This document shows positions 994 to 17,960 of a DNA stretch of 33,145 nt, piece after piece. The stretch is from Nesterenkonia massiliensis. Lineage in GTDB: Bacteria; Actinomycetota; Actinomycetes; Actinomycetales; Micrococcaceae. Position 1 is the first letter of the stretch, and each line of letters starts with the position of its first letter. The DNA is taken from assembly GCF_000455245.1 (NCBI RefSeq), contig NZ_HG005168.1, positions 190,570 to 223,714 of the forward strand, given 5' to 3'. A program made the position numbers and the translations under genes. The notes under the pieces were generated by a model, which was not told where the DNA came from, ran no database searches, and saw only the letters and a program-made list of their open reading frames with translations.

Positions 994-1036
994 GTGCAAT
1001 GTCACAGTTGACATTTGCCACTAGTGGACAAAGAAT
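994..1036 (+). promoter_or_regulatory. Operator copy 1 (994-1006) plus candidate promoter for the AGCS symporter
   Basis: GTGCAATGTCACA at 994-1006 fits the shared motif GTRCAATGTYACA and has the dyad GTGnnATnnCAC. It is followed two bases later by TTGACA (1008-1013), a 17-bp spacer and AAGAAT (1031-1036), a reasonable -35/-10 pair. The 20 bases from 994 differ from those at 2601-2620 at only three positions. The operator sits just upstream of the -35 box, so it could serve activation or repression. Assignment to the GntR protein at 4607-5356 is inference. Confidence 0.6.
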
Positions 1037-1095
1037 AAATGAGATGCACGTCACATCTGCCCTCTCTCACCCTCAACCCGTAGGAGCCGTTCTTT

Positions 1096-2571
1096 ATGGA
1101 ACTCATCGGTGCTGTCAATGACTGGATCTGGAATCCCATGGCCTATTTCGCCCTGGCGGTGGGGCTCTTCTTCACCATCCTCACCGGAGCCGTGCAGTTC
1201 CGGCGCCTGCCGGACATGATTCGTCAGATCACGGAGAAGAAGAACAACGACGACGGGATCTCCTCGTTCCAGGCGCTGTTGCTGACCCTGTCTAGCCGCA
1301 TCGGTGTGGGAAACATCGCCGGCGTCGCCACCGCGCTACTGGCCGGAGGGCCCGGCGCGCTGTTCTGGATGGTGGTCGCAGCGCTGGTCGGGGCAGCCAG
1401 CTCATTCGCCGAGACGGTCCTGGCGCAGGTTTACAAGCGCAAGATCGACGGCGAGCACCGAGGTGGCGCACCGTTCTATGTGGAGTTCGGACTCAAGCTC
1501 CGCTGGCTCGCCGTCGTGCTCTCCACGCTCTATCTGCTGGGTTACGGATTCGTCTTCCCGGGCGTACAGTCCAACAACATCGCCTCCAGCATTGAAGTGG
1601 CCTTTAATGTGCCGGTCTGGCTGACTGCTCTTGGTCTCACCGCACTGCTTGCGTTCACCATCCTTGGCGGAACCCGCCGCATTGTGAAGACCGCGCAGAT
1701 CATGGTCCCGGTGATGGCTGTCGGGTACATCGTTTTCGCGATCCTGATCATCGGAGCCAATCTCGGCCAGGTGGTCCCCACCCTGCAGATGATTCTGGGG
1801 GCGGCCTTCGGAATGGACCAGGTCCTGGGCGGTATGGCAGGTGCTGCGATTGCGTGGGGCGTGCGCCGCGCGGTCTTCTCCAATGTCGCAGGAGTTGGAG
1901 AAGGCACCTTCGGGGCAGCAGCTGCCGCTGTTTCCCACCCTGCCAAACAGGGGCTGGTCCAAGCATTCTCGATCTTCATCGACACCGTTGTTGTCTGCAC
2001 CGCCACCGGAGTCATGATTCTGATCACCGACTCCTTCAATGTGGAGCACAACGGTGAAACCGTCATTGAACATGTGCCAGGGGTGCAGGCGGGAGTGGCC
2101 TACACCCAGGAGGCCGTCAACACCTTGTTCTCCGGGTTCGGGCCAGCCTTTGTTGCCATAGCGCTGTTCTTCTTCGCCTTCACTGCGTTGATCGCGTTCT
2201 ACTACATCGCGGACACCAACCTGGCCTACATCCGACGCCGCAGCGGCGGTGCTGCTGAATGGGTGCTCAAGATCGGGTTCCTCGCGATCACCTTCTTCGG
2301 TTCCGTGGCTTCGGCGGACCTGATGTGGGGACTTGGAGACATCGGCTACGGACTCCTGGGATGGGTCAACATGCTGGTCATCCTTGCGATGACGCCTGTA
2401 GTGCGCAAAGTCATCAAGGACTACGACGAGCAAATGCGGGCCGGGGTCAATCCGGTGTTTGACCCGCAGAAGCTGGGAATCTCAGGCGCACAGCATTGGG
2501 AGGAGGAAGTGGCTTACAGAAGCTCTCACCTCCCTGCAGAACCGCCCAGTCACCACGGACAGGGGTCGTAG
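1096..2571 (+). CDS. AGCS family alanine/glycine:cation symporter
   Basis: A 491-residue polytopic membrane protein of the sodium:alanine symporter family (AGCS, DagA/AlsT type), which imports small neutral amino acids with sodium or protons. The family-typical stretch GVGNIAGVATAL occurs near residue 72, with the long alternation of hydrophobic segments and a length normal for the family. AGGAG at 1082-1086 lies nine bases before the ATG. The gene precedes the hydroxyproline-type operon by about 100 bp and shares an operator-like motif with it, so import of hydroxyproline, proline or a D-amino acid is a fair guess; AGCS substrates cannot be told from sequence alone. The C-terminal tail after about residue 455 is hydrophilic. 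The conserved Ser-Gly before the GVGN loop reads Ser-Arg here. Confidence 0.92.
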   Translation: MELIGAVNDWIWNPMAYFALAVGLFFTILTGAVQFRRLPDMIRQITEKKNNDDGISSFQALLLTLSSRIGVGNIAGVATALLAGGPGALFWMVVAALVGAASSFAETVLAQVYKRKIDGEHRGGAPFYVEFGLKLRWLAVVLSTLYLLGYGFVFPGVQSNNIASSIEVAFNVPVWLTALGLTALLAFTILGGTRRIVKTAQIMVPVMAVGYIVFAILIIGANLGQVVPTLQMILGAAFGMDQVLGGMAGAAIAWGVRRAVFSNVAGVGEGTFGAAAAAVSHPAKQGLVQAFSIFIDTVVVCTATGVMILITDSFNVEHNGETVIEHVPGVQAGVAYTQEAVNTLFSGFGPAFVAIALFFFAFTALIAFYYIADTNLAYIRRRSGGAAEWVLKIGFLAITFFGSVASADLMWGLGDIGYGLLGWVNMLVILAMTPVVRKVIKDYDEQMRAGVNPVFDPQKLGISGAQHWEEEVAYRSSHLPAEPPSHHGQGS

Positions 2572-2585
2572 TTTCCCTCAATATC

Positions 2586-2620
2586 ACCAGTCAGTAACTG
2601 GTACAATGTTACAGTTCACA
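2586..2620 (+). promoter_or_regulatory. Operator copy 2 (2601-2613) with adjoining inverted repeat, before the catabolic operon
   Basis: GTACAATGTTACA at 2601-2613 fits the shared motif; its dyad reads GTAnnATnnTAC. The match to the copy before the AGCS gene continues through AGTTCACA (2613-2620; AGTTGACA in the other). Directly upstream, ACCAGT (2586-2591) and ACTGGT (2597-2602) form a 6-bp inverted repeat around a 5-base loop, overlapping the operator by two bases. This could be a second binding half or a weak terminator of the AGCS gene. TACAAT at 2602-2607 could be a -10, which would favour repression, but no good -35 is seen. Confidence 0.6.
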
Positions 2621-2672
2621 AAATGATGAGTCCCCAGGCGGACAGTCCATTCAAAAATAAGGAGACGTTTTC

Positions 2673-3575
2673 ATGACCGAGCACAAACCCTGGCACGGCG
2701 TCATCGTTGCCACTGCACTGCCCTTCCGTGATGACTACTCAGTGGATTACGACGCATATGCCGAGCATGTGAAGTGGCTGGCAGAAAGCGGTTGTGACGG
2801 GGTGGCTCCCAATGGATCCTTGGGCGAGTACCAGACCCTGACTGATGAAGAGCGTGCTCGCGTCATCACCACCGCTGTGGAGGCTGCCCCCGAAGGCTTC
2901 AGCGTGATGGCCGGTGTGGGCGCCTACTCCAGCCTGCAGAGCGAGCGGTGGGCCCAGCAGGCTGCAGAAGCCGGCGCAGACTGCGTCATGCTCCTGCCCC
3001 CGAACTCCTACCGGGCCAATCACGAGGAAGTCGTCGAGCACTATCGACGTGTAGGCAAAGCAGGCCTGCCGATCGTGGGATACAACAACCCGATTGACAC
3101 CAAAGTGGACCTGACCCCTGAGCTGATCGCCCGCATTCACGGCGAAGGCAATATGGTGGCAGTCAAGGAGTTCACCGGGGATGTCCGCCGTGCCTACGAA
3201 ATCAAGGAGCTTGCTCCTGAGATGGATCTGGTCATCGGCACCGACGACACTGTGCTGGAGATGGGCTTGGCCGGAGCAGTCGGCTGGGTCTCCGGATATC
3301 CCAATGCCATTCCGGAGTCCACCATTGAGCTCTACCGCCTCTCCACCAGCGGGAAGGTGGAGGACCTGGTGCGGGCCAAGGAGATCTACACGGACCTGCA
3401 TTCGCTGCTGCGCTGGGACTCCAAGACTGAGTTTGTGCAGGCCATCAAGCTGTCCATGGACATCGCAGGTCGCAAGGGTGGTCACTGTCGGCCACCGCGC
3501 GGTCCGCTCTCAGCATCCATGGCGGAAGCGATTACCGCAGATACCAAAAAGGCCCTGGCCAACGGATACAAATAG
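2673..3575 (+). CDS. DapA-family aldolase/deaminase, probable 1-pyrroline-4-hydroxy-2-carboxylate deaminase
   Basis: A 300-residue class I aldolase of the dihydrodipicolinate synthase/N-acetylneuraminate lyase family (TIM barrel, cytosolic). Visible landmarks are NGSLGEYQTL (residues 47-56, phosphate/carboxylate loop), Tyr137 in GYNNP and the Schiff-base Lys165 in AVKEFTGD. Beside a proline-racemase-type epimerase and a multi-subunit dehydrogenase, the most likely reaction is conversion of pyrroline-4-hydroxy-2-carboxylate to alpha-ketoglutarate semialdehyde plus ammonia, the third step of bacterial hydroxyproline breakdown. True DapA is less likely because no lysine-pathway gene is nearby. 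AAGGAG at 2659-2664 supports the ATG. It is the first gene of the operon, about 30 bp before the epimerase gene. Family is certain, substrate is inferred from context. Confidence 0.85.
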   Translation: MTEHKPWHGVIVATALPFRDDYSVDYDAYAEHVKWLAESGCDGVAPNGSLGEYQTLTDEERARVITTAVEAAPEGFSVMAGVGAYSSLQSERWAQQAAEAGADCVMLLPPNSYRANHEEVVEHYRRVGKAGLPIVGYNNPIDTKVDLTPELIARIHGEGNMVAVKEFTGDVRRAYEIKELAPEMDLVIGTDDTVLEMGLAGAVGWVSGYPNAIPESTIELYRLSTSGKVEDLVRAKEIYTDLHSLLRWDSKTEFVQAIKLSMDIAGRKGGHCRPPRGPLSASMAEAITADTKKALANGYK

Positions 3576-3605
3576 ACTGAACATAAACAGATAAGGATCG
3601 CTGGC

Positions 3606-4607
3606 ATGAGGACGTCCCACATCTACCACGCGGTGGACTCGCACACCGAAGGTATGCCCACGCGCGTGATCACCGGCGGCGTCGCGCCCATTCCGGGTAA
3701 GACCATGGCTGAACGCCGCCTGTGGTTCATGGAGCACCGGGACGGCCTGCGTCGTTTGCTGATGCGGGAACCGCGCGGGCACAGCGCCATGAGCGGAGCG
3801 ATCCTGCAACCCCCAACACGCCACGACGCCGACTGGGGCGTGCTGTTTATTGAAGTCTCCGGTCTGCTGCCCATGTGCGGTCACGGCACGATCGGTGTCT
3901 GTACCGTCCTGGTGGAGACCGGCATGGTGGAGGTCACCGAACCGGTCACACAAGTCCGGCTGGACACCCCAGCCGGACTTGTGGTGGCCGACGTCGCGGT
4001 CTCAGACGGCCGCGCCGAATCAGTGACCATCCGCAATGTGCCCTCATTCCTGCTGCGCCAAGAGGCTACGGTGGAGGTCCCCGGACTGGGCGAGGTCACC
4101 TACGACCTGGCCTTCGGCGGGAACTTCTATGCAGTGGTGGAGCTGGAGAAACTGGGGCTGCCCTTTGACCGCAAGGCTAAGGATCAGCTGTTAGCGGCGG
4201 GGCTGTCCATCATGGAAGCCATCAACACCGCGGATATGCCGGTGCATCCCGAACGCGAGGACATCCGCGGATGTCATCACGTCTACCTGCAGGCACCGGG
4301 GTCTACCGCCGAACATTCACGCCACGCCATGGCCATCCACCCGGGGTGGTTTGACCGCTCTCCCTGTGGGACCGGCACCAGCGCCCGCATGGCCCAGCTG
4401 CATGCCAAGGGTGAGCTGCCGCTGGAGACGGACTTCCTCAACGAGTCCTTCATCGGCTCCAGGTTCATCGGCAGGCTGGTGGAAGAAACCACGGTAGGGG
4501 GACTTCCCGCCGTCGTACCCACGGTGACCGGGCGCGCCTGGCTCACCGGCACGGCACAATACTTCCTAGACCCCACTGACCCCTACCCGGAGGGATTCGA
4601 ACTCTGA
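3606..4607 (+). CDS. Proline racemase family, probable 4-hydroxyproline 2-epimerase
   Basis: A 333-residue member of the proline racemase family. Both catalytic cysteines are present: Cys91 in MCGHGTIG and Cys254 in SPCGTGTSA. That separates it from trans-3-hydroxyproline dehydratases, which carry Thr at the first position, and marks it as a racemase or epimerase working without cofactor by a two-base mechanism. With the deaminase and amine dehydrogenase in the same operon, epimerisation of trans-4-hydroxy-L-proline to cis-4-hydroxy-D-proline is the likely job; plain proline racemase cannot be excluded. The stop overlaps the start of the regulator gene by one base, indicating translational coupling. 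Confidence 0.88.
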   Translation: MRTSHIYHAVDSHTEGMPTRVITGGVAPIPGKTMAERRLWFMEHRDGLRRLLMREPRGHSAMSGAILQPPTRHDADWGVLFIEVSGLLPMCGHGTIGVCTVLVETGMVEVTEPVTQVRLDTPAGLVVADVAVSDGRAESVTIRNVPSFLLRQEATVEVPGLGEVTYDLAFGGNFYAVVELEKLGLPFDRKAKDQLLAAGLSIMEAINTADMPVHPEREDIRGCHHVYLQAPGSTAEHSRHAMAIHPGWFDRSPCGTGTSARMAQLHAKGELPLETDFLNESFIGSRFIGRLVEETTVGGLPAVVPTVTGRAWLTGTAQYFLDPTDPYPEGFEL

Positions 4608-5356
4608 TGCCTGCCCACAACATTCCACTGGATACCATCCAGCAGTACCGGAGCCTGCGCAGCACGGTGACGGAGGCGCTGCGGACCGCCATCATCGTCG
4701 GCGACCTCGAAGAGGGCGAACTCTACTCCGCCCCGGCCTTGGCTGAGCCGCTGGGAGTCTCTGCCACCCCGGTGCGCGAGGCCATGATGGATCTGACCAA
4801 TGATGGCCTGGTGGTCCCGGTCAAGAACAAAGGCTTCCGGGTCACCGAGATGACTCCTGAAGACCTGCGGGAAACCACCGCGGTCCGCCAGCTGCTGGAG
4901 GCGCCGGCGGTGCGTGCCCTGACCGGCCGCCTCCCGGAGGCAGCGTTCCCGGAGCTGCGAGCCAAGGCCGAAGAGATCAGCGCGGCTGCCGCTGAGGGAG
5001 ACCTGCGCACTTATCTGGCAGAGGACCGGGCGTTCCACGCCGCGATCCTTCAGTACACCGGCAATACCCGCCTGGTAGATCTCTGCACCCGACTGCGCGG
5101 GCAGACCCGGTTGAAGGCGCTGCGCAGCCTGGTGGATGAAGGTCGCCTGGTGGAGTCTGCTCACGAGCACATCACGCTGCTGGACCGTATGCAGGCAGGG
5201 GATGCTGAGGGTGCCTATGAGGTCATCATGCATCATCTGGGCCATGCCTCCCAGCTGTGGGCACAGGGTACTGAAGGCACTGAAGCCTCCGAAGTCGTGG
5301 AGGTGACACCTCTTCTGGTGCGTGACTTGCCGAATCGGGCCGAGGATACCGAATGA
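4607..5356 (+). CDS. GntR-family transcriptional regulator, FCD type
   Basis: A 249-residue regulator. The N-terminal winged helix spans roughly residues 14-72, with the recognition region SATPVREAMMDLTNDGLV, followed by an all-helical ligand-binding FCD domain (about 85-225) with conserved Asp, Arg and His positions. FCD regulators usually bind short palindromes and release them when a pathway metabolite binds. The gene lies inside the catabolic operon, coupled on both sides (1-base and ATGA overlaps), so it is probably autoregulated. Its likely target is the GTRCAATGTYACA motif at 994, 2601 and 17948, with a weaker copy at 12142; FCD operators of comparable dyad type are known. Repression relieved by hydroxyproline or a pathway intermediate is inference. 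Confidence 0.9.
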   Translation: MPAHNIPLDTIQQYRSLRSTVTEALRTAIIVGDLEEGELYSAPALAEPLGVSATPVREAMMDLTNDGLVVPVKNKGFRVTEMTPEDLRETTAVRQLLEAPAVRALTGRLPEAAFPELRAKAEEISAAAAEGDLRTYLAEDRAFHAAILQYTGNTRLVDLCTRLRGQTRLKALRSLVDEGRLVESAHEHITLLDRMQAGDAEGAYEVIMHHLGHASQLWAQGTEGTEASEVVEVTPLLVRDLPNRAEDTE

Positions 5357-6555
5357 GTGCTGTCCCCCGGACTGGCGCTGATGTGCTGGTGATCGGTGCA
5401 GGTGCGGTGGGATCCGCCGTCGCGTTCTACTGCGCGCGGGCCGGCATGTCAGTGACGGTTCTGGATAAGGGCAAACCCGGGGGCGGAACCTCCTCCCGCT
5501 GCGAGGGCAACCTGCTGGTCTCTGATAAAGAGCACGGCCCGGAACTGGACTTGGCCAATTACTCGCTGGATCTGTGGCGCGGGGAGCTGGAGGAGTTCGG
5601 TCACCTCTGGGAGTTCGAAAACAAGGGCGGGATCATTGTGGCCTCCCGCGAGTCCTCTATGACGTCCCTGCAGCGTGCCCTGCGGACCCAGCGTGAGCAC
5701 GGCATCCGGGTGGAAGAGATCGACGTACCCCAGCTGCGCGAGCTGGAGCCCAACATCAGCGACGACGCCGTCGGTGCTGCTTTCTACCCCGATGATGCGC
5801 AACTGATGCCCATGCTGCTCACCGCGCATATGCTGCGCCTGGCGCGCTCTCACGGGGCGCAGGTGCACCCCGACACTGAAGTCACCGGATTCCTTTCCCA
5901 GGGAGAGCGGATCACCGGGGTGACCACCAACCGCGGGGAGTTCCAGGCGAATGTGGTGATCAATGCTGCTGGACCGTGGTCTGGTCAGCTGGCCTCGCTG
6001 GCAGGGGTCAGTGTGCCGGTGGAGCCGCGCCGCGGCTACGTGCTGGTGACCGAACCGCTGCCGCCGAAGGTCTTCCACAAGGTCTATGCCGCTGAGTACA
6101 TCGACAATGTCGGGTCCTCTGATGACGGCTTGCAGACCTCCCCGGTGGTGGAGGGCACACCCGCGGGCAGCATCCTCATCGGCTCCTCCCGCGAGCGGGT
6201 GGGTTTTGATCCCACTTTCAGTCCGACGGCGGTCCGGGACATCGCCCGCAACGCTGTTGAGCTCTTTCCTTTCTTAAGTGACGTGAGAATCTTGCGGCAC
6301 TATTTCGGGTTCCGGCCCTACAGTCCGGACCATGTACCGGTGATTGGTCCGGACCCGCGTGCTCCGGGGCTGTGGCATGCCTGCGGCCATGAAGGTGCCG
6401 GCATCGGTCTGGCATCAGGCACCGGCAAGCTGATCGCCCAGGCTGTGGCGGGGGAGCCGACGGATCTGGATTTGGCGGCTTTCGCACCGGACCGGTTCGG
6501 CGCGGCAGATTCTGAAGCAGCACAGTCTGGAGCAGCGAAGGAGGCAGCGGCATGA
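5353..6555 (+). CDS. FAD-dependent oxidoreductase (DAO family), probable D-hydroxyproline dehydrogenase catalytic subunit
   Basis: A 400-residue flavoprotein of the glycine/D-amino-acid oxidase (DAO) family. The Rossmann motif GAGAVG is at residues 15-20, and the C-terminal FAD-contact region includes GPDPRAPGLWHACGHEGAGIGLASG. Alone it could be a D-amino-acid or sarcosine oxidase. Together with the small ferredoxin-like and HcnB-like genes that follow it resembles the beta subunit of hetero-oligomeric D-hydroxyproline dehydrogenase (Pseudomonas aeruginosa type) and of hydrogen cyanide synthase HcnABC. It would oxidise cis-4-hydroxy-D-proline to pyrroline-4-hydroxy-2-carboxylate, passing electrons to the other subunits. 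ATGA overlaps join it to the regulator gene before and the ferredoxin gene after. The last 20 residues are Ala-rich. Confidence 0.87.
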   Translation: MSAVPRTGADVLVIGAGAVGSAVAFYCARAGMSVTVLDKGKPGGGTSSRCEGNLLVSDKEHGPELDLANYSLDLWRGELEEFGHLWEFENKGGIIVASRESSMTSLQRALRTQREHGIRVEEIDVPQLRELEPNISDDAVGAAFYPDDAQLMPMLLTAHMLRLARSHGAQVHPDTEVTGFLSQGERITGVTTNRGEFQANVVINAAGPWSGQLASLAGVSVPVEPRRGYVLVTEPLPPKVFHKVYAAEYIDNVGSSDDGLQTSPVVEGTPAGSILIGSSRERVGFDPTFSPTAVRDIARNAVELFPFLSDVRILRHYFGFRPYSPDHVPVIGPDPRAPGLWHACGHEGAGIGLASGTGKLIAQAVAGEPTDLDLAAFAPDRFGAADSEAAQSGAAKEAAA

Positions 6556-6812
6556 CAGCCAAGCCTGTGACCATCACCGTGGATGGTGAGTCAGTGCGCA
6601 CCGAATCCGGCCGCAGCGTGGCCGCAGCATTGACCCTGGAACAGCAGCGCACCGCATGGCGCAGCACCCGGTTCAACCAGGAACCGCGCGGACTGTTCTG
6701 CGGCATAGGCGCCTGCTTCGACTGCCTGATCACCGTGGATGGCACTCCTGGTCTGCGCGGCTGCATGGTGCAGGTGGAAGACGGCATGAGCGTGGAGACC
6801 GATAAGTCATGA
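6552..6812 (+). CDS. Small [2Fe-2S] ferredoxin-like subunit (HcnA-like)
   Basis: An 86-residue protein with four cysteines, Cys50, Cys55, Cys58 and Cys71, in the plant-type ferredoxin arrangement C-x4-C-x2-C-x12-C (CGIGACFDC then GLRGCMV). Proteins of this size and pattern form the gamma subunit of hetero-oligomeric D-hydroxyproline dehydrogenase and of HcnA-type enzymes, carrying electrons between flavins. ATGA overlaps with both neighbours imply fixed stoichiometry and complex formation. No transmembrane or signal segment is seen, so the complex is probably cytosolic or peripherally attached to the membrane. Confidence 0.88.
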   Translation: MTAKPVTITVDGESVRTESGRSVAAALTLEQQRTAWRSTRFNQEPRGLFCGIGACFDCLITVDGTPGLRGCMVQVEDGMSVETDKS

Positions 6813-8359
6813 CCGGCGGAGTTCAGGAAGCCGAAGCAGCGCCTGCAGAAGTGTTTGACGTTGCAGTGGTGGGTGCCGGTCCGGCAGGTTTGGCAGCTGC
6901 CGGGGAAGCCGCAGCCGCTGGCTGCTCGGTGCTGCTGGTGGATGCTGGCACTCAGTTTGGTGGCCAGTACTGGCGCCATGCCGCCCCTGAGGCTGAGGAC
7001 ACCGATCCCGGACGCTGGCACCACGGGTGGAGCATCTACCAGCGGTTGACGCAGCGGGTTCGGGATGCCGTGGATGTAGGACGGATCCGGCATCTGGCAT
7101 CAACCCATGTGGTCTCAGTACGCCGAGAACAAGCCGGTGGAGACGGTGCCGAGGGTTTCCTCCTGCAGGCTTCACTGCTTCCTGAGGCACAGAAACCTGG
7201 CTCCTATCAGGCCCCGCAGTTGCTGCAGGCGCGCGCACTGATTCTGTGCCCAGGCACCTATGACCGGCAGCTGCCGGTGCCGGGCTGGACTCTGCCCGGT
7301 GTGATGGCAGCCGGGGGAGTGCAGGCTTTCATCAAAACCCAGGGTGCGGCACCGGGTCGCCGAGTAGTGCTGGCCGGGACTGGGCCGTTCCTGCTCTCGG
7401 CTGCGGCGTCGGTGATTCACGCCGGTGCCGAGGTGGCGGCCATCTGTGAGAGCAACAGCCTGACCGGGTGGTTCCCTGGCGGCGCAGCGGCGGCCCTGGT
7501 GCCGTCGAAGGCTGCTGAGGGTGCCGGGTATGTGGCGCTGTTGGCCAAGCATCGAGTGCCTTATTACCGGAGCACTGCGGTGACTGCCATTCACGGTGAT
7601 GCAGCCCGGGAGGGGGCCGTTCGTTCGGTGACTGTATCTGCGTTGGATGCCTCGGGCACTCCGGTCCCGGGTTCGGGCAGGGAAGTTAACGACGTCGACG
7701 TCGTGGGTCTGGGCTGGGGCTTTGTGCCGCAGCCGGAGCTGCTGCTGCAACTTGGCGCGCAGACCACGCTGGACGAGGACGGTTCCCTGGTGGGGGTGGC
7801 TGACGCTGATCAGAGCAGCAGCATCCCGCGGCTGTACCTGGCTGGGGAGATTACCGGTGTGGCCGGGGCCGCTGCGGCGGTGGCTGAGGGTCGGATTGCA
7901 GGACGTGCGGCGTCGTCATCGGTGGGTCAGGCTGTGCGGGCAGGCGTTGCTGATATTCAGGACCGGGCTACCCGCGCTGCGCACCGGCGCTTCGCTTCGG
8001 TGATGCAAAAGGCGCACCCCATTCCGGAGGGCTGGACCCAGTGGCTGGAGGATGAGACGCTCATCTGCCGCTGCGAGGAAGTGCCGTGGGAGACCGCCCG
8101 TGCCGCGGCTGAGGAGCTTTCTGCTGAGGAGCCGCGCGGGCTCAAGGGCAGCACCCGGATAGGTATGGGCTGGTGTCAGGGCCGGATGTGCGGATTCGCC
8201 GCGCAGTGCCTGAGCAAGAAGGCACATGTTGGCGAAGGTGGAGCATCATCTGGGCGCGAGGCTGAACATGCGGCCGCGCTCAGTGCTGCTAAGCGGCCGC
8301 TGGCGGTGCCGATGCGGTTGGGAGATCTGGCAGAGGAGCCGGAGCTGACTCAGGAATGA
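6809..8359 (+). CDS. FAD/NAD(P)-binding oxidoreductase with BFD-like [2Fe-2S] domain (HcnB-like), probable dehydrogenase alpha subunit
   Basis: A 516-residue protein. The N-terminal Rossmann fold has VGAGPAGLAA near residue 20, a second dinucleotide fold (VLAGTGPFLL) lies around residue 185, and a C-terminal bacterioferritin-associated-ferredoxin-like segment at about 418-465 carries the cysteines CRCEE and WCQGRMCG. This domain order matches HcnB and the alpha subunit of hetero-oligomeric D-hydroxyproline dehydrogenase; it may relay electrons from the DAO-type subunit towards the respiratory chain. It is coupled by ATGA overlaps to the [2Fe-2S] subunit gene and to the MFS gene. The final 40 residues are Ala/Glu-rich and look non-conserved. 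Confidence 0.88.
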   Translation: MTGGVQEAEAAPAEVFDVAVVGAGPAGLAAAGEAAAAGCSVLLVDAGTQFGGQYWRHAAPEAEDTDPGRWHHGWSIYQRLTQRVRDAVDVGRIRHLASTHVVSVRREQAGGDGAEGFLLQASLLPEAQKPGSYQAPQLLQARALILCPGTYDRQLPVPGWTLPGVMAAGGVQAFIKTQGAAPGRRVVLAGTGPFLLSAAASVIHAGAEVAAICESNSLTGWFPGGAAAALVPSKAAEGAGYVALLAKHRVPYYRSTAVTAIHGDAAREGAVRSVTVSALDASGTPVPGSGREVNDVDVVGLGWGFVPQPELLLQLGAQTTLDEDGSLVGVADADQSSSIPRLYLAGEITGVAGAAAAVAEGRIAGRAASSSVGQAVRAGVADIQDRATRAAHRRFASVMQKAHPIPEGWTQWLEDETLICRCEEVPWETARAAAEELSAEEPRGLKGSTRIGMGWCQGRMCGFAAQCLSKKAHVGEGGASSGREAEHAAALSAAKRPLAVPMRLGDLAEEPELTQE

Positions 8360-10332: not shown

Positions 10333-10338
10333 CAGTCC

Positions 10339-10344: not shown

Positions 10345-10368
10345 CTTTCTCTACCGCGGCCGGACCTC

Positions 10369-10397
10369 TTGGTTAGATCTAACCTAACTGTTAGTCT
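10369..10397. promoter_or_regulatory. Two adjacent MarR-type palindromes over the antiporter promoter
   Basis: GGTTAGATCTAACC at 10371-10384 is a perfect 14-bp palindrome. Beside it CTAACTGTTAG (10384-10394) is an inverted repeat with a single central base; both share the half-site CTAAC/GTTAG. They lie inside a plausible antiporter promoter: TTGGTT (10369-10374), 17-bp spacer, TAGTCT (10392-10397). Binding of the divergent MarR protein here would block that promoter. Confidence 0.7.
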
Positions 10398-10435
10398 TTA
10401 TGTGATCAATACTGGACACTAGCTCGGAGACTCTT

Positions 10436-11638
10436 ATGGGTGAAGCACTACTCGGACTCGGCGTCCTCTTAGTCTTGGCGACCTATCTTGGGCGAGCCGC
10501 CCGTCTGGTCGGACTTCCCAGCGTTCCGATCTATATGCTTGTAGGTTTGCTCGCTAGTCCTGCCGTGGGTATAAGCCCGCTTCACATTTCTTACGAAGAC
10601 GTGCAGCTTTTAGCCACGGTCGGATTAGTGTTGCTCCTTTTCCACCTGGGCCTGGAGTTCGATACCGCGGCTTTCGCAAAGGACGCAAGGACCCTGATTC
10701 TGGCTGGTGTCTCCTACATTGTGATCAATTTCGGGGCCGGTCTGCTCCTAGGGTTCGCATTAGGATGGGGAGGCGCTGAAGCCTTTGTCATCGCTGGAAT
10801 GACCGGTATTTCTTCGTCAGCGATAGTCACCAAGTTGATGATCGACCTTAAAAAACTCGGCAAACCCGAGACTTCTCTCATTCTTGGCACCATCGTTATC
10901 GAGGACGTTTTCCTGGCCCTTTATCTGGCGATTCTGAACGTGCTGATCAACCCTGCCGACAACCTAGGAGCTTCGGCAGTGAAGCTGTTGATCTCTGTGG
11001 GCTTCCTTATTCTGCTGTTCATCATGGCTCGCCGCGGCAGCCGGATCGTCAGCCGTATCGTTGGTGAAAAGAGTTCGGAGCTGTTCATCGTCGGTTTGGT
11101 CGGCATCACCCTCTTCTTTGCTGGAGCAGCGGAAGAATTGGGAGTTTCCGATGCCATCGGAGCCTTTATGGTGGGTCTGATCGTTGCCGGAACTGACGCG
11201 CGTCACCGTGCGGAGACGGCCATTAATCCGCTTAGGGACACGTTCGCGGCCGTCTTCTTCATCGGCTTCGGTCTTACCCTGGATCCTTCCGAATTCGGCC
11301 AAGTGCTCGTGCCAGTCATAGTTGCCGTTCTGATCACTCTGGTCGCAAATGTGGCTGCTGGTGTGATAGCTGGCCGACTGCAACGTCTACCCCTGACCAC
11401 GGGGGTTGAGGTTGGTCTCATGCTGGTCAGCCGGGGAGAATTCGCGTTGATTCTGGCAACTATGGCAGCCGCAGCGAACCTAGACCCTCGGCTCACACCG
11501 TTCGCCGGCCTCTATGTCCTTGTGCTGGCTATCCTTGGTCCGATACTTGCCACCTATGGTCCACGACTCTGGCGCGGTAAGAGTGAGCAAGCATCCCAGG
11601 AGGCCATTAAGGCGGTACCCCGGTCTCCTGCATCCTGA
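10436..11638 (+). CDS. CPA2-family cation:proton antiporter (KefB/KhtU-like membrane domain)
   Basis: A 400-residue membrane protein with about 12 hydrophobic segments. Typical CPA2 elements are present: LLLFHLGLEFD near residue 66, GMTGISSSAIVTKLM near 120, and GTIVIEDVFLALYLA near 147 with the conserved acidic pair. It would exchange potassium or sodium for protons across the cytoplasmic membrane. There is no RCK/TrkA-N domain and no KhtT-like partner beside it; control seems transcriptional, by the divergent MarR gene. GGAGA at 10426-10430 supports the ATG. Lower GC and more A/T-ending codons than the flanking genes suggest recent acquisition of the marR-antiporter pair. Confidence 0.9.
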   Translation: MGEALLGLGVLLVLATYLGRAARLVGLPSVPIYMLVGLLASPAVGISPLHISYEDVQLLATVGLVLLLFHLGLEFDTAAFAKDARTLILAGVSYIVINFGAGLLLGFALGWGGAEAFVIAGMTGISSSAIVTKLMIDLKKLGKPETSLILGTIVIEDVFLALYLAILNVLINPADNLGASAVKLLISVGFLILLFIMARRGSRIVSRIVGEKSSELFIVGLVGITLFFAGAAEELGVSDAIGAFMVGLIVAGTDARHRAETAINPLRDTFAAVFFIGFGLTLDPSEFGQVLVPVIVAVLITLVANVAAGVIAGRLQRLPLTTGVEVGLMLVSRGEFALILATMAAAANLDPRLTPFAGLYVLVLAILGPILATYGPRLWRGKSEQASQEAIKAVPRSPAS

Positions 11639-11639
11639 G

Positions 11640-12130: not shown

Positions 12131-12136
12131 ACTTAG

Positions 12137-12153
12137 TAATATGTAAAATTACA
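12137..12153 (+). promoter_or_regulatory. Diverged operator copy (12142-12153) at the glycosidase promoter
   Basis: TGTAAAATTACA at 12142-12153 is a near-perfect palindrome and agrees with TRCAATGTYACA at 9 of 12 positions. It sits directly behind TAATAT (12137-12142), a good -10, so a bound regulator would cover the transcript start. GTAAT (12136-12140) and ATTAC (12148-12152) also form an inverted repeat. The relation to the stronger copies is plausible but weaker. Confidence 0.45.
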
Positions 12154-12174
12154 CAGCGAGAGAGGGTCTTGGCC

Positions 12175-15165
12175 ATGCCGTCGAATTCAGTGCCTCAGGT
12201 GCCCAGGGTGTTCGCTACCCCGGAATCGGCCTGTCTTGTTGGTGTCCCACTCGCACAGGCTGTGATGGACACCTATGGCATCTTCGCTCCTGCCCGAGAA
12301 AAGATGTTGCACCTGGCACAGGTTTATCCCGTCGACAGAATCCTCGCCGTGTTCCGGGCCAACGCCGGACTGGACGCCCGCGGCGCTGAGCCGCCCGGCG
12401 GTTGGGAAGATTGGGGCCATCCCAACGAGCAGGCCTGGGGCGAACGGGACTACCCCGGCCGGGACCAAGCCCAAACCGCCAACCTGCTGCGCGGCCACTA
12501 CGCCGGGCACTTCCTCTCCATGCTTGCCCTCGCCTACGCCGGCACCCAGGACCAACACCTCAAAACCAAAGTCGACGACGTCGTCGATGGACTTGCCCAA
12601 TGTCAGCAGGCCCTTGCCACTACCGACCGCTACAGCCACCCCGGCTTCCTCGCCTCCTATGGTGAATGGCAGTTCGCTCGCCTAGAACACCTCGCGCCCT
12701 ACGGAGAAATCTGGGCGCCCTACTACACCGCGCACAAGATCATGGCCGGGCTGCTGGACGCCTACGAACTCGCCGGCAACCAACAGGCACTCAGCGTCCT
12801 GACCGGCATGGCCGACTGGGTCCACTACCGCCTGCACAAACTCACGCCCGAGCGCAGACAGCAGATGTGGTCCCTCTACATCGCCGGGGAATTCGGCGGC
12901 ATGAACGAGACCCTCGCCCGGCTAGCCAAGATCACCGGCCGCCCCGAGCACTTAGCCGCAGCCCAATTCTTCGACCAGACTGAACTGCTCGAAGCCTGCG
13001 CCCGCGGCGAAGACGTCCTGGACGGCAAACACGCCAACCAGCACATCCCGCAGTTCATCGGCTACCTCCACGAATACGACCTCACCGGGGACCAGCGATA
13101 CTTCGACGCCGCCGTCGGGCTGTTCGCCATGGTGGTTCCCGGGCGCACCTACGCCCACGGCGGCTCAGGGGAATCCGAGCTATGGGGCCCGCCCAACACC
13201 CAAGCCGGTGACATCGGCCGCCGAAACGCTGAAACCTGCGTGGCCTACAACATGATCAAACTGGCCCGCGAGCTGTTCATGCGCATAGCTGATCCGATCT
13301 ACACCGACTACATCGAACAAGCGCTGACCAACCAGATCCTCGGCTCCCGGAAGAACGCAGACTCGGCCAGCAACCCCTCGGGCAGCACCCACTCGGACAG
13401 CATCCCCTCAGACACCAGCCCCGAAGTCACCTACATGTTCCCGGTCCACCCCGGTGCCCGCCGAGAATACGGCAACACCGGCACCTGCTGCGGCGGCACC
13501 GGCCTGGAAAACCACGTCAAATACCAGGACAGCATCTTCTTCACAGCACCGAACCAGACCTGGATCAACCTGTACTCACCAGCCCAGCTCTCCGCCGAGG
13601 CCAACGGGATAGGCCTCCGCATTGAAGGGGACTACCCCTACTCAATCCAAGTGCGCATCGTGGTTGACGCTGTCCATGAGCGCACCCCCGATCACACACT
13701 GCACCTGCGTATCCCCGGATGGCTGGCACCCGCATCATCAGCACAGGAAAGCCCGGTGGTGAAGGTCAACGGTCAGCGGTCTGACCTCACCCCTGAGCCC
13801 GGCACTTACCTCTCACTCACGCGGGACTGGCAGCCCGGCGACGTCGTCGACCTTCACCTGCCCATGCGTCTGCGCGCCATCCCCACCATTGACGACCCCT
13901 CTGTGCAGCACCTGCAGATCGGCCCAGTGGTGCTTGCCGCCATCAGCGACCAGCAGAGCTCACTGCAGTTGCCGCTACTGGGCTTACGTGCCTTGGACGG
14001 CAGCCTCATCCCGGATACGCCAACCGGCGGGGGAGAGGGCTCGACCGCGAACACCGAGGAGATGCTGAAACAGCTGCGCCGGACCGGCAGCCTGGACTTT
14101 GCCGGACTGCAATGGGAGCCCGTCCACTCAGGCAATGAGGCCAGTTATCACATGTACGTCACCGCAGCAGATGACACCATCGCCTTCGCCGGGAAAGACT
14201 CGGGCGTGCCCAACCGGCTGCGCCCCAACGGGCAAACCGTCCTGGAGAGCCTATGGGCCGACGGCGGATTCTCCAGTCGTCACGGGTTCCTGGAGCGCAC
14301 AGCAGACGTAGTCACCGCAGCCCGAGAAGAGGGCGTGCTCTCCGCGACCGAAGCCGAAACGGTGCTGATCACCGCTGCCACCGCGCCCCTGGATGCCGCG
14401 CACCTCAACGCGGCGCCCCTCAATTCCCCGGGCCACAGTGCTCCGCCTGCCCGGACCAGCAGTACGGTGCAGGGCACGGGCCAGCGGGTCACGTTCGAAG
14501 ACAGCGCCGAATGCGAGTCCGTAGAACGCAAGCCCGCGATACACGATCTAGCCGATCACGAGCCAACCAACCACAAGCCAGTCGAACACGTCACCTGGCA
14601 TCTCCCGGTCCACTGGCACCAGATCACCGCGCCCCCGCTGGTCTCCATCAGCATCACCGGTCACGTCTCGCCCACCGGCTGGCACACCGAACACCCGCAG
14701 ATCACGCTCACCGCCGAGCAGCTCTCCAACAGCACTGACCAAGACCTGCAGTTGGAGTATCAGGTGGACGACGGCGCCTGGAACACCTACCGCGCGCCCT
14801 TCATCCTGGAGGTGGAAGGCGTCCACCGGCTGCGCGCCCGAGTCACCACCGCCGAGGGCACTGCGAATCTCGCCGAGGCCCGCCTGCAGATCGACACCAC
14901 CGCGCCGGTCACCGCCCACCAGGTGCTCATCAACGGCTCCGGTGCTGAAATCCGCCTCCGGGCAGAAGACTCAGTATCCGGGGTGGAACGGGTGCAGTGG
15001 GAAGGCCCAGGAACCTTCTGGGCCACCTACCAGGGGCCCTTTATGCGAGCCTTGACTGAGACCAAACAGATTATTGAATTCGCGGCCACTGATGTGGCTG
15101 GCAATGAAGAACCGCGTCGGCAGATCATCCTGCCGGCCCATCAACCCGAAGGAGATCACCGATGA
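12175..15165 (+). CDS. GH127/DUF1680 family glycosidase, probable beta-L-arabinofuranosidase, with C-terminal Ig-like domains
   Basis: A 996-residue protein from ATG 12175. The TTG at 12169 in the same frame is too close to the AGAGGG ribosome site at 12161-12166. Residues 1 to about 640 match DUF1680, the (alpha/alpha)6-barrel family containing GH127 and GH146 beta-L-arabinofuranosidases. The zinc-thiolate site is complete: Glu353 and Cys355 in NAETC, Cys438 and Cys439 in GTCCGG; in Bifidobacterium HypBA1 the equivalent pair includes the cysteine nucleophile. A Ser-rich insert lies near 390-416. After a Pro/His-rich linker, about 820-990 holds two beta-sandwich repeats of OmpL47/Ig-like type (VDDGAWNTYRAPF, GPGTFWATYQGPF). 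No signal peptide is visible, so action on imported glycosides is likely. Its stop overlaps the next start (ATGA). Confidence 0.85.
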   Translation: MPSNSVPQVPRVFATPESACLVGVPLAQAVMDTYGIFAPAREKMLHLAQVYPVDRILAVFRANAGLDARGAEPPGGWEDWGHPNEQAWGERDYPGRDQAQTANLLRGHYAGHFLSMLALAYAGTQDQHLKTKVDDVVDGLAQCQQALATTDRYSHPGFLASYGEWQFARLEHLAPYGEIWAPYYTAHKIMAGLLDAYELAGNQQALSVLTGMADWVHYRLHKLTPERRQQMWSLYIAGEFGGMNETLARLAKITGRPEHLAAAQFFDQTELLEACARGEDVLDGKHANQHIPQFIGYLHEYDLTGDQRYFDAAVGLFAMVVPGRTYAHGGSGESELWGPPNTQAGDIGRRNAETCVAYNMIKLARELFMRIADPIYTDYIEQALTNQILGSRKNADSASNPSGSTHSDSIPSDTSPEVTYMFPVHPGARREYGNTGTCCGGTGLENHVKYQDSIFFTAPNQTWINLYSPAQLSAEANGIGLRIEGDYPYSIQVRIVVDAVHERTPDHTLHLRIPGWLAPASSAQESPVVKVNGQRSDLTPEPGTYLSLTRDWQPGDVVDLHLPMRLRAIPTIDDPSVQHLQIGPVVLAAISDQQSSLQLPLLGLRALDGSLIPDTPTGGGEGSTANTEEMLKQLRRTGSLDFAGLQWEPVHSGNEASYHMYVTAADDTIAFAGKDSGVPNRLRPNGQTVLESLWADGGFSSRHGFLERTADVVTAAREEGVLSATEAETVLITAATAPLDAAHLNAAPLNSPGHSAPPARTSSTVQGTGQRVTFEDSAECESVERKPAIHDLADHEPTNHKPVEHVTWHLPVHWHQITAPPLVSISITGHVSPTGWHTEHPQITLTAEQLSNSTDQDLQLEYQVDDGAWNTYRAPFILEVEGVHRLRARVTTAEGTANLAEARLQIDTTAPVTAHQVLINGSGAEIRLRAEDSVSGVERVQWEGPGTFWATYQGPFMRALTETKQIIEFAATDVAGNEEPRRQIILPAHQPEGDHR

Positions 15166-16364
15166 CCACACTCGCGCTGCGCCGCGGACGCTTTCTGAAC
15201 CCAGCAGATGGGGAGATCACAGAAGGTGACATGCTCATCGAAGACGGCGTCATCGCCCAGGTGGGCACCATCAGCGGGGCCTTCGACGAAGAAGTCGACC
15301 TGGGCGGGCGCATTGTCATCCCCGGGCTGATCGACGCACACTTCCACGCCTACGCCCACGCCACCAGCGGCCCTGAACTAGAAACCCGGCACTTAAGCTA
15401 CGTGGCCATCAACGGGCTGCGCCGCTGCTCGGCCGCCCTGCGCCGCGGGTTCACCACTATCCGCGACGTCGCCGGCGGTGACCTCGGCTTCGCCCAGGCC
15501 CTGGAAGCAGATGACCAGCCCAACCCCCGCTACCTCTACACCGGCCCGGGGCTGAGCCAGACCGGTGGCCACGGTGACGCCCGCCCCGCCGAATACGACC
15601 TCTGCCTCAACCACGGACGCCACGGGCACATCGGCGAGGTGGTCGACGGTGCCGATGACATGCGCCGTGCCGTACGTGAACGCTTCCGCACCGGCGCCCA
15701 CGCCATCAAGATCATGGCCTCCGGCGGCGTCGCCTCGCCCACCGATCCGCTGCGCATCCCCCAGTACTCCTCCGAGGAGATCAAGGTGGCAGTAGAGGAA
15801 GCTACCCGCCGCGGCAGCTACGTGGCCGCCCACGCCTACACCGCCGACGCCGTCATCCACGCGGTCTCCAACGGGGTGCGCACCGTGGAACACGGCAACC
15901 TCATCGACCAGGGCGCCGCCGAGCTGATGGCCGAGCGCGGAGCCTACCTGGTCCCCACCCTGGTGGCTTATGACGCCATGAACCGCCGCGGCCCCGAGGC
16001 CGGACTGCCGCCAGTGAGCCAGCAGAAGAACCTTGAGGTACTCCATGCGGGTAAGGACGCGGTGCGTATCGCCGCCGACGCCGGGGTGAAGGTCGGCTGG
16101 GGCAGTGACCTGATGGGTGACCTCGAAGACGATCAGCTCATCGGCATCGCCCTGCAGGCCGAAGCCCAGAGCCCGGCTGAGCTGCTTCGCTCCCTGACCG
16201 TGGTCAACGCAGAGATCATCGGCATGCCAGAACTGGCCACCTTCGAAGAAGGCACCCCGGCGGACCTGCTGGTGCTTCAGGAGAACCCGCTGGATGACGC
16301 CTCAGTGCTGTGGGATGAGGCGCGTGAACGGACCGTGATCCGCGCCGGCGTCGTCGTCAGCTAA
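15162..16364 (+). CDS. Metal-dependent amidohydrolase, prolidase/imidazolonepropionase-like group
   Basis: A 400-residue amidohydrolase-superfamily protein. The binuclear metal set is visible: His60-x-His62 in DAHFHAY, Lys183 (carbamylated lysine) in IKIMASGG, His224, His244 in VEHG, and catalytic Asp316 in WGSDLMGD. This group contains Xaa-Pro dipeptidases, aryl-dialkylphosphatase-like and imidazolonepropionase-like enzymes; overall it looks most like the Sgx9260-type prolidases. GAAGGAG at 15148-15154 supports the ATG, which overlaps the glycosidase stop by four bases, so the two are co-translated. Beside a hydroxyproline operon, hydrolysis of an Xaa-Hyp or Xaa-Pro dipeptide is an attractive but unproven role. 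No signal peptide, so cytosolic. Confidence 0.82.
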   Translation: MTTLALRRGRFLNPADGEITEGDMLIEDGVIAQVGTISGAFDEEVDLGGRIVIPGLIDAHFHAYAHATSGPELETRHLSYVAINGLRRCSAALRRGFTTIRDVAGGDLGFAQALEADDQPNPRYLYTGPGLSQTGGHGDARPAEYDLCLNHGRHGHIGEVVDGADDMRRAVRERFRTGAHAIKIMASGGVASPTDPLRIPQYSSEEIKVAVEEATRRGSYVAAHAYTADAVIHAVSNGVRTVEHGNLIDQGAAELMAERGAYLVPTLVAYDAMNRRGPEAGLPPVSQQKNLEVLHAGKDAVRIAADAGVKVGWGSDLMGDLEDDQLIGIALQAEAQSPAELLRSLTVVNAEIIGMPELATFEEGTPADLLVLQENPLDDASVLWDEARERTVIRAGVVVS

Positions 16365-16384
16365 CCCCCACCCAAGCAGCAAGA

Positions 16385-16426
16385 CGAAGGGCCTGCCACC
16401 CCGGAATGCGGGAGGCAGGCCCTTCG
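16385..16426. terminator. Strong hairpin between convergent genes, probable bidirectional terminator
   Basis: CGAAGGGCCTGCC (16385-16397) and GGCAGGCCCTTCG (16414-16426) form a perfect 13-bp stem; the 16-base loop can pair further (CCC with GGG). It lies between the amidohydrolase stop (+) and the symporter stop (-). There is no long T run on either side, as is common in GC-rich actinobacteria. Confidence 0.8.
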
Positions 16427-16466
16427 CGTGTCTCGGTGTTGTCAGACGCCGGGTCAGACGCCGAGG

Positions 16467-17879
16467 TCAGGCGTTCTGCTCAACCTGCTCTTCAGGAAGA
16501 GCAGTGGTCTTCGGCTTGGTGACCAGGCTGACCAGGAGCAGCGTCACCACGGCCACCGGCAGGGAGACGACGACGGCGTTGAGGTCGCTGTTGGCGGCCT
16601 GCTCCCAGACGATGGTGACCACCACGCCCAGTCCCATGGAGGCCAGCACGCCCGCCGTCGTGGCTCGACGCCAGAAGAATGCGGCCATCAGCGCCGGCAC
16701 CAGTGCCACACCATAGACGGTGTAGGAGTACATCTGAAGCTGAAGGACAGTGGGGAAGAAGGTGCCCAGCACATAAGCGAGTACGGCGATGACCAGGATG
16801 GTGATGCGGTGGATAAGCAGGCGCTTCCGGTCGCTGAGTGGCTTGTCAGTAAAGCGGGCAAAACCGTCATAGACGATATTGCCGCCCACAGACAGCAGGA
16901 ACGATGATCCGGTGGTGATGATGAACGCCAGGGCACTGGCCAGGACCAGTGCACCCAGCAGTACGGGCAGGGTTCCGTCTCCTGCCAGGCCCAGGACGGC
17001 GTCGTCGGGGTTGCCGTCGGGCATCAGCGTCACGGCTGCAGTGGCCAGAATGGTCACCGGGGCGTAGATCAGGAAGGAGGCGAAGAACATTCCGGCCATT
17101 GACCGCCGGGCAGCTGCAGGGTCACGGGAAGCGCCCAGTCGCTGGTACATGTTCTGATCCGAGATGATCAGCAGGAACGTGGGCAGGAAGTAGCCCAGCA
17201 GAGCCAGTGCGCTTAAGCCCCCGGAGAAGTTCTGATGAGTATCAGGCAGGTTCTCCCACCAACCGGTGAATCCATCGGTCTGTCCCAGCACCACCGGAAC
17301 GGCAATGATCAGGCCCACCACAATGATGACCGCGGAGAAGAAGTCAGACCATGCCACTGATTTCAGTCCGCCGCCCAGGGCCAGGAACGTGATAATGGCG
17401 GTGGCGATGATGGCGCCCTGGCCGGGAGTCAGGCCGGTGACGATGGAGATGATGTTGCCGCCGCCGGTGAACTGGTAGGCCACGATGCCCACATAGGCCA
17501 GCACGGTGATGATGGCAGCCAGCATGCGCACCGAAATGCCGAAGCGCAGCTCCAGGATCTGCGGCACCGTGTAGGACCCAGAGACGCGAATGCGCTGGGC
17601 CAAGAAGTACAGGACCACCATGCCCACCGGGCCGCTTCCGAAGAAGATGATGGCCGCCAGTGGGCCATAGTTGTAGACGAAGCTGGCACCACCGATGATG
17701 GTGCCTGAGCCCACCCAGGTGGCGATCAGCGTTCCGACCATCACGATGGTGGGCAGCTGCCGCCCGGCGAAGATGAAGTCGTCTCCGGTGGAGACTTTCT
17801 TGGTGCGGCTGAACCACAGTCCGGTGGCGACAAGTCCTGCCAAATACAGGACGAGTACGACGATGTGGGTAGTTTCCAT
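16467..17879 (-). CDS. Sodium:solute symporter (SSS family)
   Basis: A 470-residue membrane protein of the SSS family (PutP/SGLT fold), about 13 hydrophobic segments, acting in the cytoplasmic membrane. Landmarks are GDDFIFAGRQLP near residue 32, ATWVGSGTIIGGA near 53 and GGLKSVAWSDFFSAVIIVVG near 174, a normal layout for sodium-coupled importers. GGAGGGG lies five bases before the ATG. The substrate is unknown; relatives carry proline, pantothenate, carboxylates or sugars. The divergent intergenic region carries the same operator motif as the hydroxyproline operon, which argues for a substrate of that system such as hydroxyproline, a dipeptide or a small glycoside. It converges with the amidohydrolase gene across a shared terminator. 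Confidence 0.9.
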   Translation of the reverse strand: METTHIVVLVLYLAGLVATGLWFSRTKKVSTGDDFIFAGRQLPTIVMVGTLIATWVGSGTIIGGASFVYNYGPLAAIIFFGSGPVGMVVLYFLAQRIRVSGSYTVPQILELRFGISVRMLAAIITVLAYVGIVAYQFTGGGNIISIVTGLTPGQGAIIATAIITFLALGGGLKSVAWSDFFSAVIIVVGLIIAVPVVLGQTDGFTGWWENLPDTHQNFSGGLSALALLGYFLPTFLLIISDQNMYQRLGASRDPAAARRSMAGMFFASFLIYAPVTILATAAVTLMPDGNPDDAVLGLAGDGTLPVLLGALVLASALAFIITTGSSFLLSVGGNIVYDGFARFTDKPLSDRKRLLIHRITILVIAVLAYVLGTFFPTVLQLQMYSYTVYGVALVPALMAAFFWRRATTAGVLASMGLGVVVTIVWEQAANSDLNAVVVSLPVAVVTLLLVSLVTKPKTTALPEEQVEQNA

Positions 17880-17937
17880 TAGGCCCCTCCAGCAGGTGCG
17901 AAGCGCAAGATGTGCGGTGCGTCATAGTGCTGGAACC

Positions 17938-17960
17938 AATCTACCCTGTGCAATGTTACA
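17938..17960. promoter_or_regulatory. Operator copy 3 (17948-17960) in the divergent symporter/pectinase promoter
   Basis: GTGCAATGTTACA at 17948-17960 matches GTRCAATGTYACA fully. On the plus strand TACCCT (17942-17947) abuts it as a possible -10 for the broken pectinase gene; on the minus strand TAGATT (17938-17943) could be the -10 of the symporter gene, placing the operator between its -35 and -10. One bound protein could control both directions. Confidence 0.62.

Follow-up and report, generated by a model that had tools for sequence, protein, structure and literature searches.

A predicted modular locus for hydroxyproline-arabinosylated plant peptides in Nesterenkonia massiliensis and related actinobacterial loci

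Do the genes for hydroxyproline (Hyp) catabolism and a glycosidase gene that lie close together on a contig of Nesterenkonia massiliensis belong to one catabolic system? The whole stretch of DNA that was analysed, hereafter the window, comprises 33,145 nt of NZ_HG005168.1 (positions 190,570-223,714; genome of 2.67 Mb), and an earlier note on it had proposed a combined system for plant Hyp-arabinosides. Based on the evidence presented below, we consider it quite likely that the window contains a Nesterenkonia version of a modular locus for the catabolism of Hyp-arabinosylated plant peptides of the extensin type. Hyp-bearing (glyco)peptides would enter the cell, in the window genome through symporters or a major facilitator superfamily (MFS) transporter, after which the glycosidase would take beta-L-arabinofuranose (Araf) off Hyp and imino-peptidases would release Hyp. 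The latter would be converted into 2-oxoglutarate via the epimerase, dehydrogenase, deaminase and aldehyde dehydrogenase, while a GntR protein would sense a pathway intermediate.

The bacterial trans-4-hydroxy-L-proline pathway consists of an epimerase, a dehydrogenase, a deaminase and a ketoglutarate-semialdehyde dehydrogenase. Profile searches of the window proteins (Pfam, NCBIfam/TIGR), by which the gene families were assigned, revealed a compact run on the forward strand (2673-9795) that encodes a DapA-family protein (2673-3575; PF00701), which, from its operon context, is likely the delta1-pyrroline-4-hydroxy-2-carboxylate deaminase, a 4-hydroxyproline 2-epimerase of the proline-racemase family (3606-4607; PF05544, E 3e-131), a GntR/FCD regulator (4607-5356; PF00392, PF07729), the three subunits of a cis-4-hydroxy-D-proline dehydrogenase and an MFS transporter (8356-9795; PF07690). 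The subunits are DAO/SoxB-like (5353-6555; PF01266, E 4e-82), 2Fe-2S-like (6552-6812; 86 aa, cysteine pattern judged by eye) and SoxA-like (6809-8359; PF07992, partial TIGR01372). The epimerase has the motifs MCGHG and SPCGTG, which we take to be those of the two catalytic cysteines, and its best NCBIfam model, PRK13971, was matched at 357.8 bits, 18 bits under the cut-off of 376. The nearest models of the MFS transporter, which is also kept in N. alba and in the Nesterenkonia genome G296 (70% and 68% matches), are efflux types with scores under their cut-offs. The sequence directly to the left of the window encodes an aldehyde dehydrogenase (L037:3247-4863, assigned by family only), an ornithine-cyclodeaminase-family (OCD) protein and TRAP transporter components. 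With this aldehyde dehydrogenase as the supplier of the last enzyme, the Hyp route would be complete, as the dehydrogenase, deaminase and semialdehyde dehydrogenase families are all encoded nearby. The route that the earlier note had read from the sequence was thus confirmed at the level of families and of both epimerase cysteine motifs.

The glycosidase gene (12175-15165, forward strand; PF07944, E 6e-78) had been compared with HypBA1, an enzyme of the GH127 type. Its GH127 catalytic domain stood up to analysis; a close relationship to HypBA1 did not. In the sequence search, the best structures were 5opj/6yqh/8qf8 and 8k7x/8k7y (BT_0349, Bll3HypBA1) at approximately 24% identity, and HypBA1 entries were absent at E<=0.001. 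The fold comparison agreed, with GH146 structures first, other GH127 enzymes after them and HypBA1 at rank 12 and below. Unlike the window glycosidase, the GH127 proteins of N. alba and of locus L076 do match HypBA1 entries by sequence. The window enzyme therefore falls with GH146 (nearest BT_0349/Bll3HypBA1) and not with the HypBA1 type of GH127, as judged by similarity of sequence and fold. Its residues E335, E353, C355, C438, C439 and E239 align with E694, E723, C725, C804, C805 and E578 of Bll3HypBA1 and are invariant in 20 members of the clade described below. In Bll3HypBA1, these residues are reported to be essential and to provide a Zn-Cys3-Glu site, a Cys nucleophile and a Glu acid/base (PMC10850190). 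The site, nucleophile and acid/base that characterise GH146 and clan GH-P are thus present by alignment, as residues only. The additional C-terminal domains are of the beta-sandwich type according to the profiles, the predicted model and the fold comparison, and no signal peptide was seen in the product when the sequence was inspected by eye. As judged from its sequence, the window enzyme is a GH146-like predicted beta-L-arabinofuranosidase with the known catalytic residues. Since Bll4HypBA1 and XeHypBA1, which are counted as GH146, act on Araf-beta1-Hyp (PMC10850190), the idea of a Hyp-arabinose substrate survives the wrong homologue.

To examine the linkage more widely, species genomes were scanned with the window and N. 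alba enzymes, and the best 80 of 419 places were studied, the peptide patterns used favouring this clade. They comprised 40 actinobacterial places (L048-L086, L111) and 40 from Firmicutes as a contrast; genes in high-GC loci were called by codon usage. In a tree of 61 rows out of the 70 prepared, a branch with 100/99 support united 39 rows, made up of 37 named loci together with the window and N. alba. In the clade's 38 named loci (N. alba counted among them), matches of at least 50% to an S33 or an M24 peptidase were present in all 38 (S33 in 34, M24 in 37) and importer parts in 34, while a GH36 protein and a true-GH127 match were each found in seven. At the same 50% or 60% thresholds, the 40 Firmicutes loci yielded no S33, M24, importer or epimerase, a comparison in which the actinobacterial queries disfavour the Firmicutes; below the thresholds there were two matches to the epimerase family (42-43%), matches to importer families in six loci and one M24 match of 27%. 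The Hyp epimerase (at least 71%) lay within the 10-kb flanks in 16 of the 38 clade loci and on the same contig, at gaps of 10.2-15.3 kb, in nine more (25/38 in total). Genome-wide, an epimerase of at least 70% was present in 37/37 clade genomes checked (21 by genome-wide search, 16 by linkage), one match being partial (G323); the two genomes outside the clade had matches of 33%. Linked loci were found in Microbacteriaceae, Glycomycetaceae, Promicromonosporaceae, Kineosporiaceae, Micromonosporaceae and Ruaniaceae as well as in the family of the window. The order was GH127/146-DapA-epimerase-OCD-GntR-dehydrogenase-aldehyde dehydrogenase in Microbacterium and GH127/146-GntR-dehydrogenase-DapA-epimerase-aldehyde dehydrogenase in Glycomyces; Nesterenkonia has a third arrangement, and in Promicromonospora a run of GntR and dehydrogenase genes is divergent from the importer. 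Such differing gene orders in different families argue for selection on the combination. In a class sample of 394 genomes, the epimerase was found in 100 at E<=1e-130, which admits matches of at least 60%, and the glycosidase in six at E<=1e-120, five of which also had the epimerase; when the window genome was left out, four of five carriers had it (Fisher one-sided p 0.015).

Two actinobacterial loci, L064 and L071 (Isoptericola, Cellulosimicrobium), fell outside the clade, and their called proteins start with a hydrophobic, signal-like stretch, which is twin-arginine-like in L064. Both have a second GH127 match behind the enzyme and no peptidase neighbours, and may represent a secreted sister form. 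In two genomes of the class sample (L174, L175), the gene of the sister-clade enzyme is preceded by another GH127 gene, which is 55-56% similar to the true GH127 of N. alba.

The earlier note had also pointed to common operator motifs, and these were confirmed. The pattern GTRCAATGTYACAKT occurs exactly three times in the window, at 994, 2601 and 17948 (0.16 expected at <=2 mismatches, the pattern having been taken from these sites), and GTRMAATGTYACAKTT was found with 0-1 mismatch only at the same three sites in the 2.67 Mb genome, with two more at 2 mismatches. These operator-like sites, all exact matches on the forward strand that are also recovered by a position weight matrix (PWM), precede the AgcS symporter gene (994-1014; PWM score 28.9) and the Hyp operon (2601-2621) and lie between the SSF symporter gene and a gene fragment (17948-17968). 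A weaker variant stands before the GH127/146 gene on the reverse strand (12134-12154), is the third or fourth best PWM match in the window and resembles the sites at the S33 promoters of N. alba and G296. A motif defined by the palindrome only, CAATGTNACATTG, was rejected as not significant (9 found against 7.05 expected at 3 mismatches). In four loci of three Nesterenkonia relatives, the window pattern gave 3 sites at <=1 mismatch and 4 at <=2 (means of 0 and 0.2 in 30 shuffles); the relatives' sites precede the Hyp operon, including the orthologous operons of G296 and G290, the true GH127 gene of N. alba and the S33 gene of G296. A matrix built from seven relatives' sites ranked 2601, 994, 12134 and 17948 highest in the window, and 0/60 shuffles reached the fourth score, a ranking that is partly circular because the seven sites were found with the window pattern. 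When a matrix lacking S33 and window-glycosidase sites was used (2601 and 994 being among its seven), 17948 and 12134 ranked next, in a ranking without shuffle control, and the S33 promoters were picked in N. alba (first in the locus) and G296 (second). In 32 of 37 clade loci from genera other than Nesterenkonia, one of the two best hits of this S33-free Nesterenkonia matrix lay no more than 400 bases upstream of Hyp or importer genes (the top hit in 29); for 100 column-permuted matrices, the mean was 10.7 and the maximum 24 (6.2 and 17 for the top hit). An operator common to the Hyp half and the glycosidase half is supported by these patterns, and the GntR protein (4607-5356) is the candidate for binding it.

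The peptidase side of the locus is represented in the window by an amidohydrolase gene (15162-16364, forward strand; PF01979), which overlaps the GH127/146 gene by 4 nt. Its best structures, 3mkv and 3feq/3n2c, agree with the prolidase-like character assigned to it previously; it matched the cog1228 prolidases Sgx9260b and Sgx9260c over nearly the full length (E 4e-90 and 2e-87) and reached 212.3 bits against the NCBIfam Xaa-Pro dipeptidase model NF051886, whose cut-off is 500. It is a likely Xaa-Hyp/Xaa-Pro dipeptidase. In the wider clade, the structure nearest to the S33 proteins is AT3g61540, with a weak likeness to proline iminopeptidases, and the M24 proteins, which have an aminopeptidase P N-domain by Pfam (L053), are nearest to aminopeptidase P structures. 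The importer, also by Pfam in L053, consists of an SBP_bac_5 protein, an OppC-type permease and an ATP-binding cassette (ABC) ATPase with an oligopeptide tail. The GH36 protein is a melibiase (alpha-galactosidase) by Pfam in L049; its gene stands in line ahead of the glycosidase gene in L049 and in L052, and five Glycomyces loci have it on the opposite strand, ahead of the importer. In extensin, serine carries alpha-galactose and Hyp carries beta-linked Araf (PMC5371791), and a GH36 enzyme beside an arabinofuranosidase fits this alpha-galactosyl-serine. In Leucobacter (L052), genes for AraA, an FGGY kinase, a class II aldolase, GalT and GalK adjoin the locus by Pfam, among which the names araB and araD would follow from family and place. 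An araA gene was found in 29/29 clade genomes searched (of 38), N. alba included.

Relatives within the genus suggest how the locus in the window may have been assembled. Among 30 Nesterenkonia genomes, the epimerase was present in six (matches of 84-100% in four, of 68% in a fifth, where the frame contains a stop, and of 37% in the sixth), and a close amidohydrolase (at least 71%) in the window genome, N. alba (G228) and G296. Glycosidase matches at E<=1e-20 were found in 5/295 genomes of the family and were close only in the window genome and N. alba. In G296, the deaminase, epimerase, GntR, dehydrogenase, MFS, S33-type hydrolase and amidohydrolase genes form a run on the same strand, by which the amidohydrolase is assigned, on gene order, to the Hyp module. 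One contig of N. alba DSM 19423 carries MFS, S33, GH127/146, amidohydrolase and GH2 genes followed by the helicase gene that also flanks the window locus. A second contig of 6 kb runs from epimerase to dehydrogenase and then into a cut-off GH127 gene (L030:4855-6009), which matches HypBA1 and other GH127 structures and not GH146. This true GH127 gene stands directly behind the Hyp dehydrogenase, has its own operator-like site and is broken near the contig end. We infer that the glycosidase gene was inserted between the S33 and amidohydrolase genes and that the window later lost S33; a paralogue of 42% is encoded elsewhere in its genome.

Several observations weigh against a single system, and some of them speak for an alternative in which the Hyp genes would be used for free Hyp, or for Hyp peptides from any source, collagen included. 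The GH127/146 protein would then be a side-chain enzyme that acts independently of them on pectic arabinan or arabinogalactan protein (AGP) and has only the accessory region in common with them. GH146 enzymes also cleave arabinan and AGP (PMC10850190), and G296 and G290 have the Hyp operon without any PF07944 match; in G296, the operon, S33 and amidohydrolase are all present, which implies that the module would work without the glycosidase. Across the genus, PF07944 is found in 10/30 genomes and the epimerase in 6/30, with an overlap of two that equals the chance expectation; a family-level link inside the genus was therefore rejected, and the claim is limited to the clade, to which the GH127/146-Hyp link is specific. 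The five other carriers of the class sample, four of which fall outside the clade in the tree (the fifth was not placed), show no linkage, with the enzyme and epimerase at least 0.65 Mb apart in four and no passing epimerase in the fifth; the 10-20 kb inspected around the enzyme did not match S33, M24 or importer queries in any of them. On the same side of the balance stand the 13 of 38 clade loci that have no nearby epimerase (at 115 kb in L073, on another contig in eleven, several of these contigs being short, and in a genome outside the data for L070), the true-GH127 matches in Firmicutes loci (10/40, no rarer than the 7/38 of the clade) and the searches of the window for S33, M24, GH2 and OppD remnants, which returned none at a useful E-value, the window copy having neither the linked importer nor the S33 and M24 peptidases of its relatives. 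The predicted model of the glycosidase (12175-15165), with a mean predicted local distance difference test (pLDDT) score of 74, falls below 50 near the active site, which also counts against our reading. Despite these points, we regard an independent side-chain enzyme as unlikely, since the linkage recurs in three gene orders across several families, peptidase neighbours are found in 38/38 named clade loci and an operator is common with the Hyp genes. The survey of related genomes, which the earlier note had proposed for its combined system, thus upheld the linkage within the clade, in several families, and failed to extend it beyond.

It is also conceivable that the clade enzyme cuts another glycoside of Hyp-rich peptides instead of beta-L-Araf-Hyp, for instance one in which Hyp or Ser carries a different pentose or hexose. 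An aceric acid hydrolase, BT1003, belongs to the wider GH127/146 tree (PMC10850190), and identity to the solved GH146 enzymes is just approximately 24%. Opposed to this are the alignment of the Bll3HypBA1 key residues with their invariance, the arabinose genes adjoining the enzyme in Leucobacter and the araA genes of the clade. The last argument is weakened, to the disadvantage of our reading as well, because no L-arabinose isomerase (araA) match was found in the window genome; G296 and G290 gave none either. We nevertheless give this other-glycoside alternative very little weight. In the preferred reading of a locus for Hyp-arabinosylated peptides, the window strain probably does not break arabinose down by the isomerase route, and its glycosidase may only unmask Hyp.

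The remaining genes of the window include an AgcS-type sodium:amino acid symporter (1096-2571, forward strand; PF01235, E 7e-138; TIGR00835 above cut-off) and, as noted earlier, a sodium:solute symporter of the SSF type (16467-17879, reverse strand; PF00474). The supposed pectinase remnant (17996-19108, forward strand) was not borne out: it is a fragment of a modular protein with a galactose-binding-like domain barely over the cut-off (PF21254, 29.8 against 27 bits), and no catalytic domain was found in it by profile search. It appears as a truncated modular protein behind an operator-like site. The Hyp half and the glycosidase half are split by a MarR regulator gene (9880-10332, reverse strand) and a CPA2 antiporter gene (10436-11638), both outside the system, where GC content is lower, down to 53% at 10-11 kb. 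This pair (9880-11638) occupies the place of the S33 peptidase gene of N. alba and G296, a replacement within the locus; given this position and the GC dip, a common origin with the system was rejected. An Hrq1/MrfA-type helicase (19241-21679 in the window; L029, L032 and L036 elsewhere) is encoded near Hyp or Hyp-linked genes in the window, N. alba, G290 and G237, epimerase-family genes being the neighbours in the latter two. No such helicase was seen within 20 kb in G296, and the helicase neighbourhood appears to be a variable site for Hyp islands. The G237 epimerase match (L036:8016-8927) contains one in-frame TGA and has an M19 dipeptidase and a solute-binding protein nearby. A gamma-glutamyltranspeptidase gene adjoins the Hyp operon in G296 (L031:16737-18647) and G290 (L032:2312-4270).

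A broader proposal, to which we assign roughly even chances, is that several actinobacterial families have a dedicated locus by which intact arabinosylated, and additionally serine-galactosylated, Hyp peptides would be imported by an oligopeptide ABC importer, stripped of sugar in the cytosol by a GH146-like clade that evolved for it and cut by imino-specific peptidases, with Hyp being burned and the whole placed under one GntR operator. If true, this would be a complete utilisation system for extensin-type glycoprotein, protein part included, and arabinosylated plant peptide hormones would be possible substrates. Among the open PubMed Central papers listed (titles and starts of abstracts; subscription papers outside the scope), none described this gene combination, and no open paper was found on prolyl aminopeptidase together with hydroxyprolyl. 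There seems to be little description of how bacteria use the protein moiety of extensins and of other Hyp-rich plant glycoproteins, and the known systems found harvest arabinose. The analysis names strains, genes and an operator and sets out a testable pathway that joins a cysteine glycosidase clade to Hyp catabolism, which is relevant to plant-associated actinobacteria and to enzymes for de-arabinosylating plant peptides.

Compared with the bacterial trans-4-hydroxy-L-proline pathway, all four step families and a GntR-type regulator are present here, joined to a glycosidase and imino-peptidases. The cog1228 prolidases Sgx9260b and Sgx9260c (3MKV, 3N2C; PMC10699109) are the best structural relatives of the amidohydrolase, which is known from sequence and scores below the curated NCBIfam Xaa-Pro dipeptidase cut-off. 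As is predicted for the window, the Bifidobacterium longum system of HypBA1, HypBA2, HypAA and Bll4HypBA1 (GH127, GH121, GH43, GH146) has beta-L-arabinofuranosidases for the Hyp-linked arabinose of plant hydroxyproline-rich glycoproteins (HRGPs). The window enzyme is nearest to the GH146 branch of the B. longum system, whose Bll4HypBA1 acts on Araf-beta1-Hyp (PMC10850190). That system is described as one that harvests arabinose (PMC6085000), whereas the linked genes described here are predicted to import and cut the peptide and to oxidise Hyp. In Xanthomonas euvesicatoria, which has XeHypBA1, XeHypBA2 and XeHypAA, XeHypBA1 (GH146 in PMC10850190) prefers Ara-Hyp, and the bacterium is reported to be unable to use arabinose (PMC6085000), as is predicted for the window genome; its enzymes are extracellular, and the available part of that paper mentions neither Hyp catabolism nor peptide import. 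For Latescibacteria, GH127 was likewise proposed to act on extensin arabinose in a prediction of HRGP degradation (PMC4454575); this was an enzyme list from single-cell genomes, in the available part of which a linked Hyp/peptidase locus such as the one proposed here is not mentioned.

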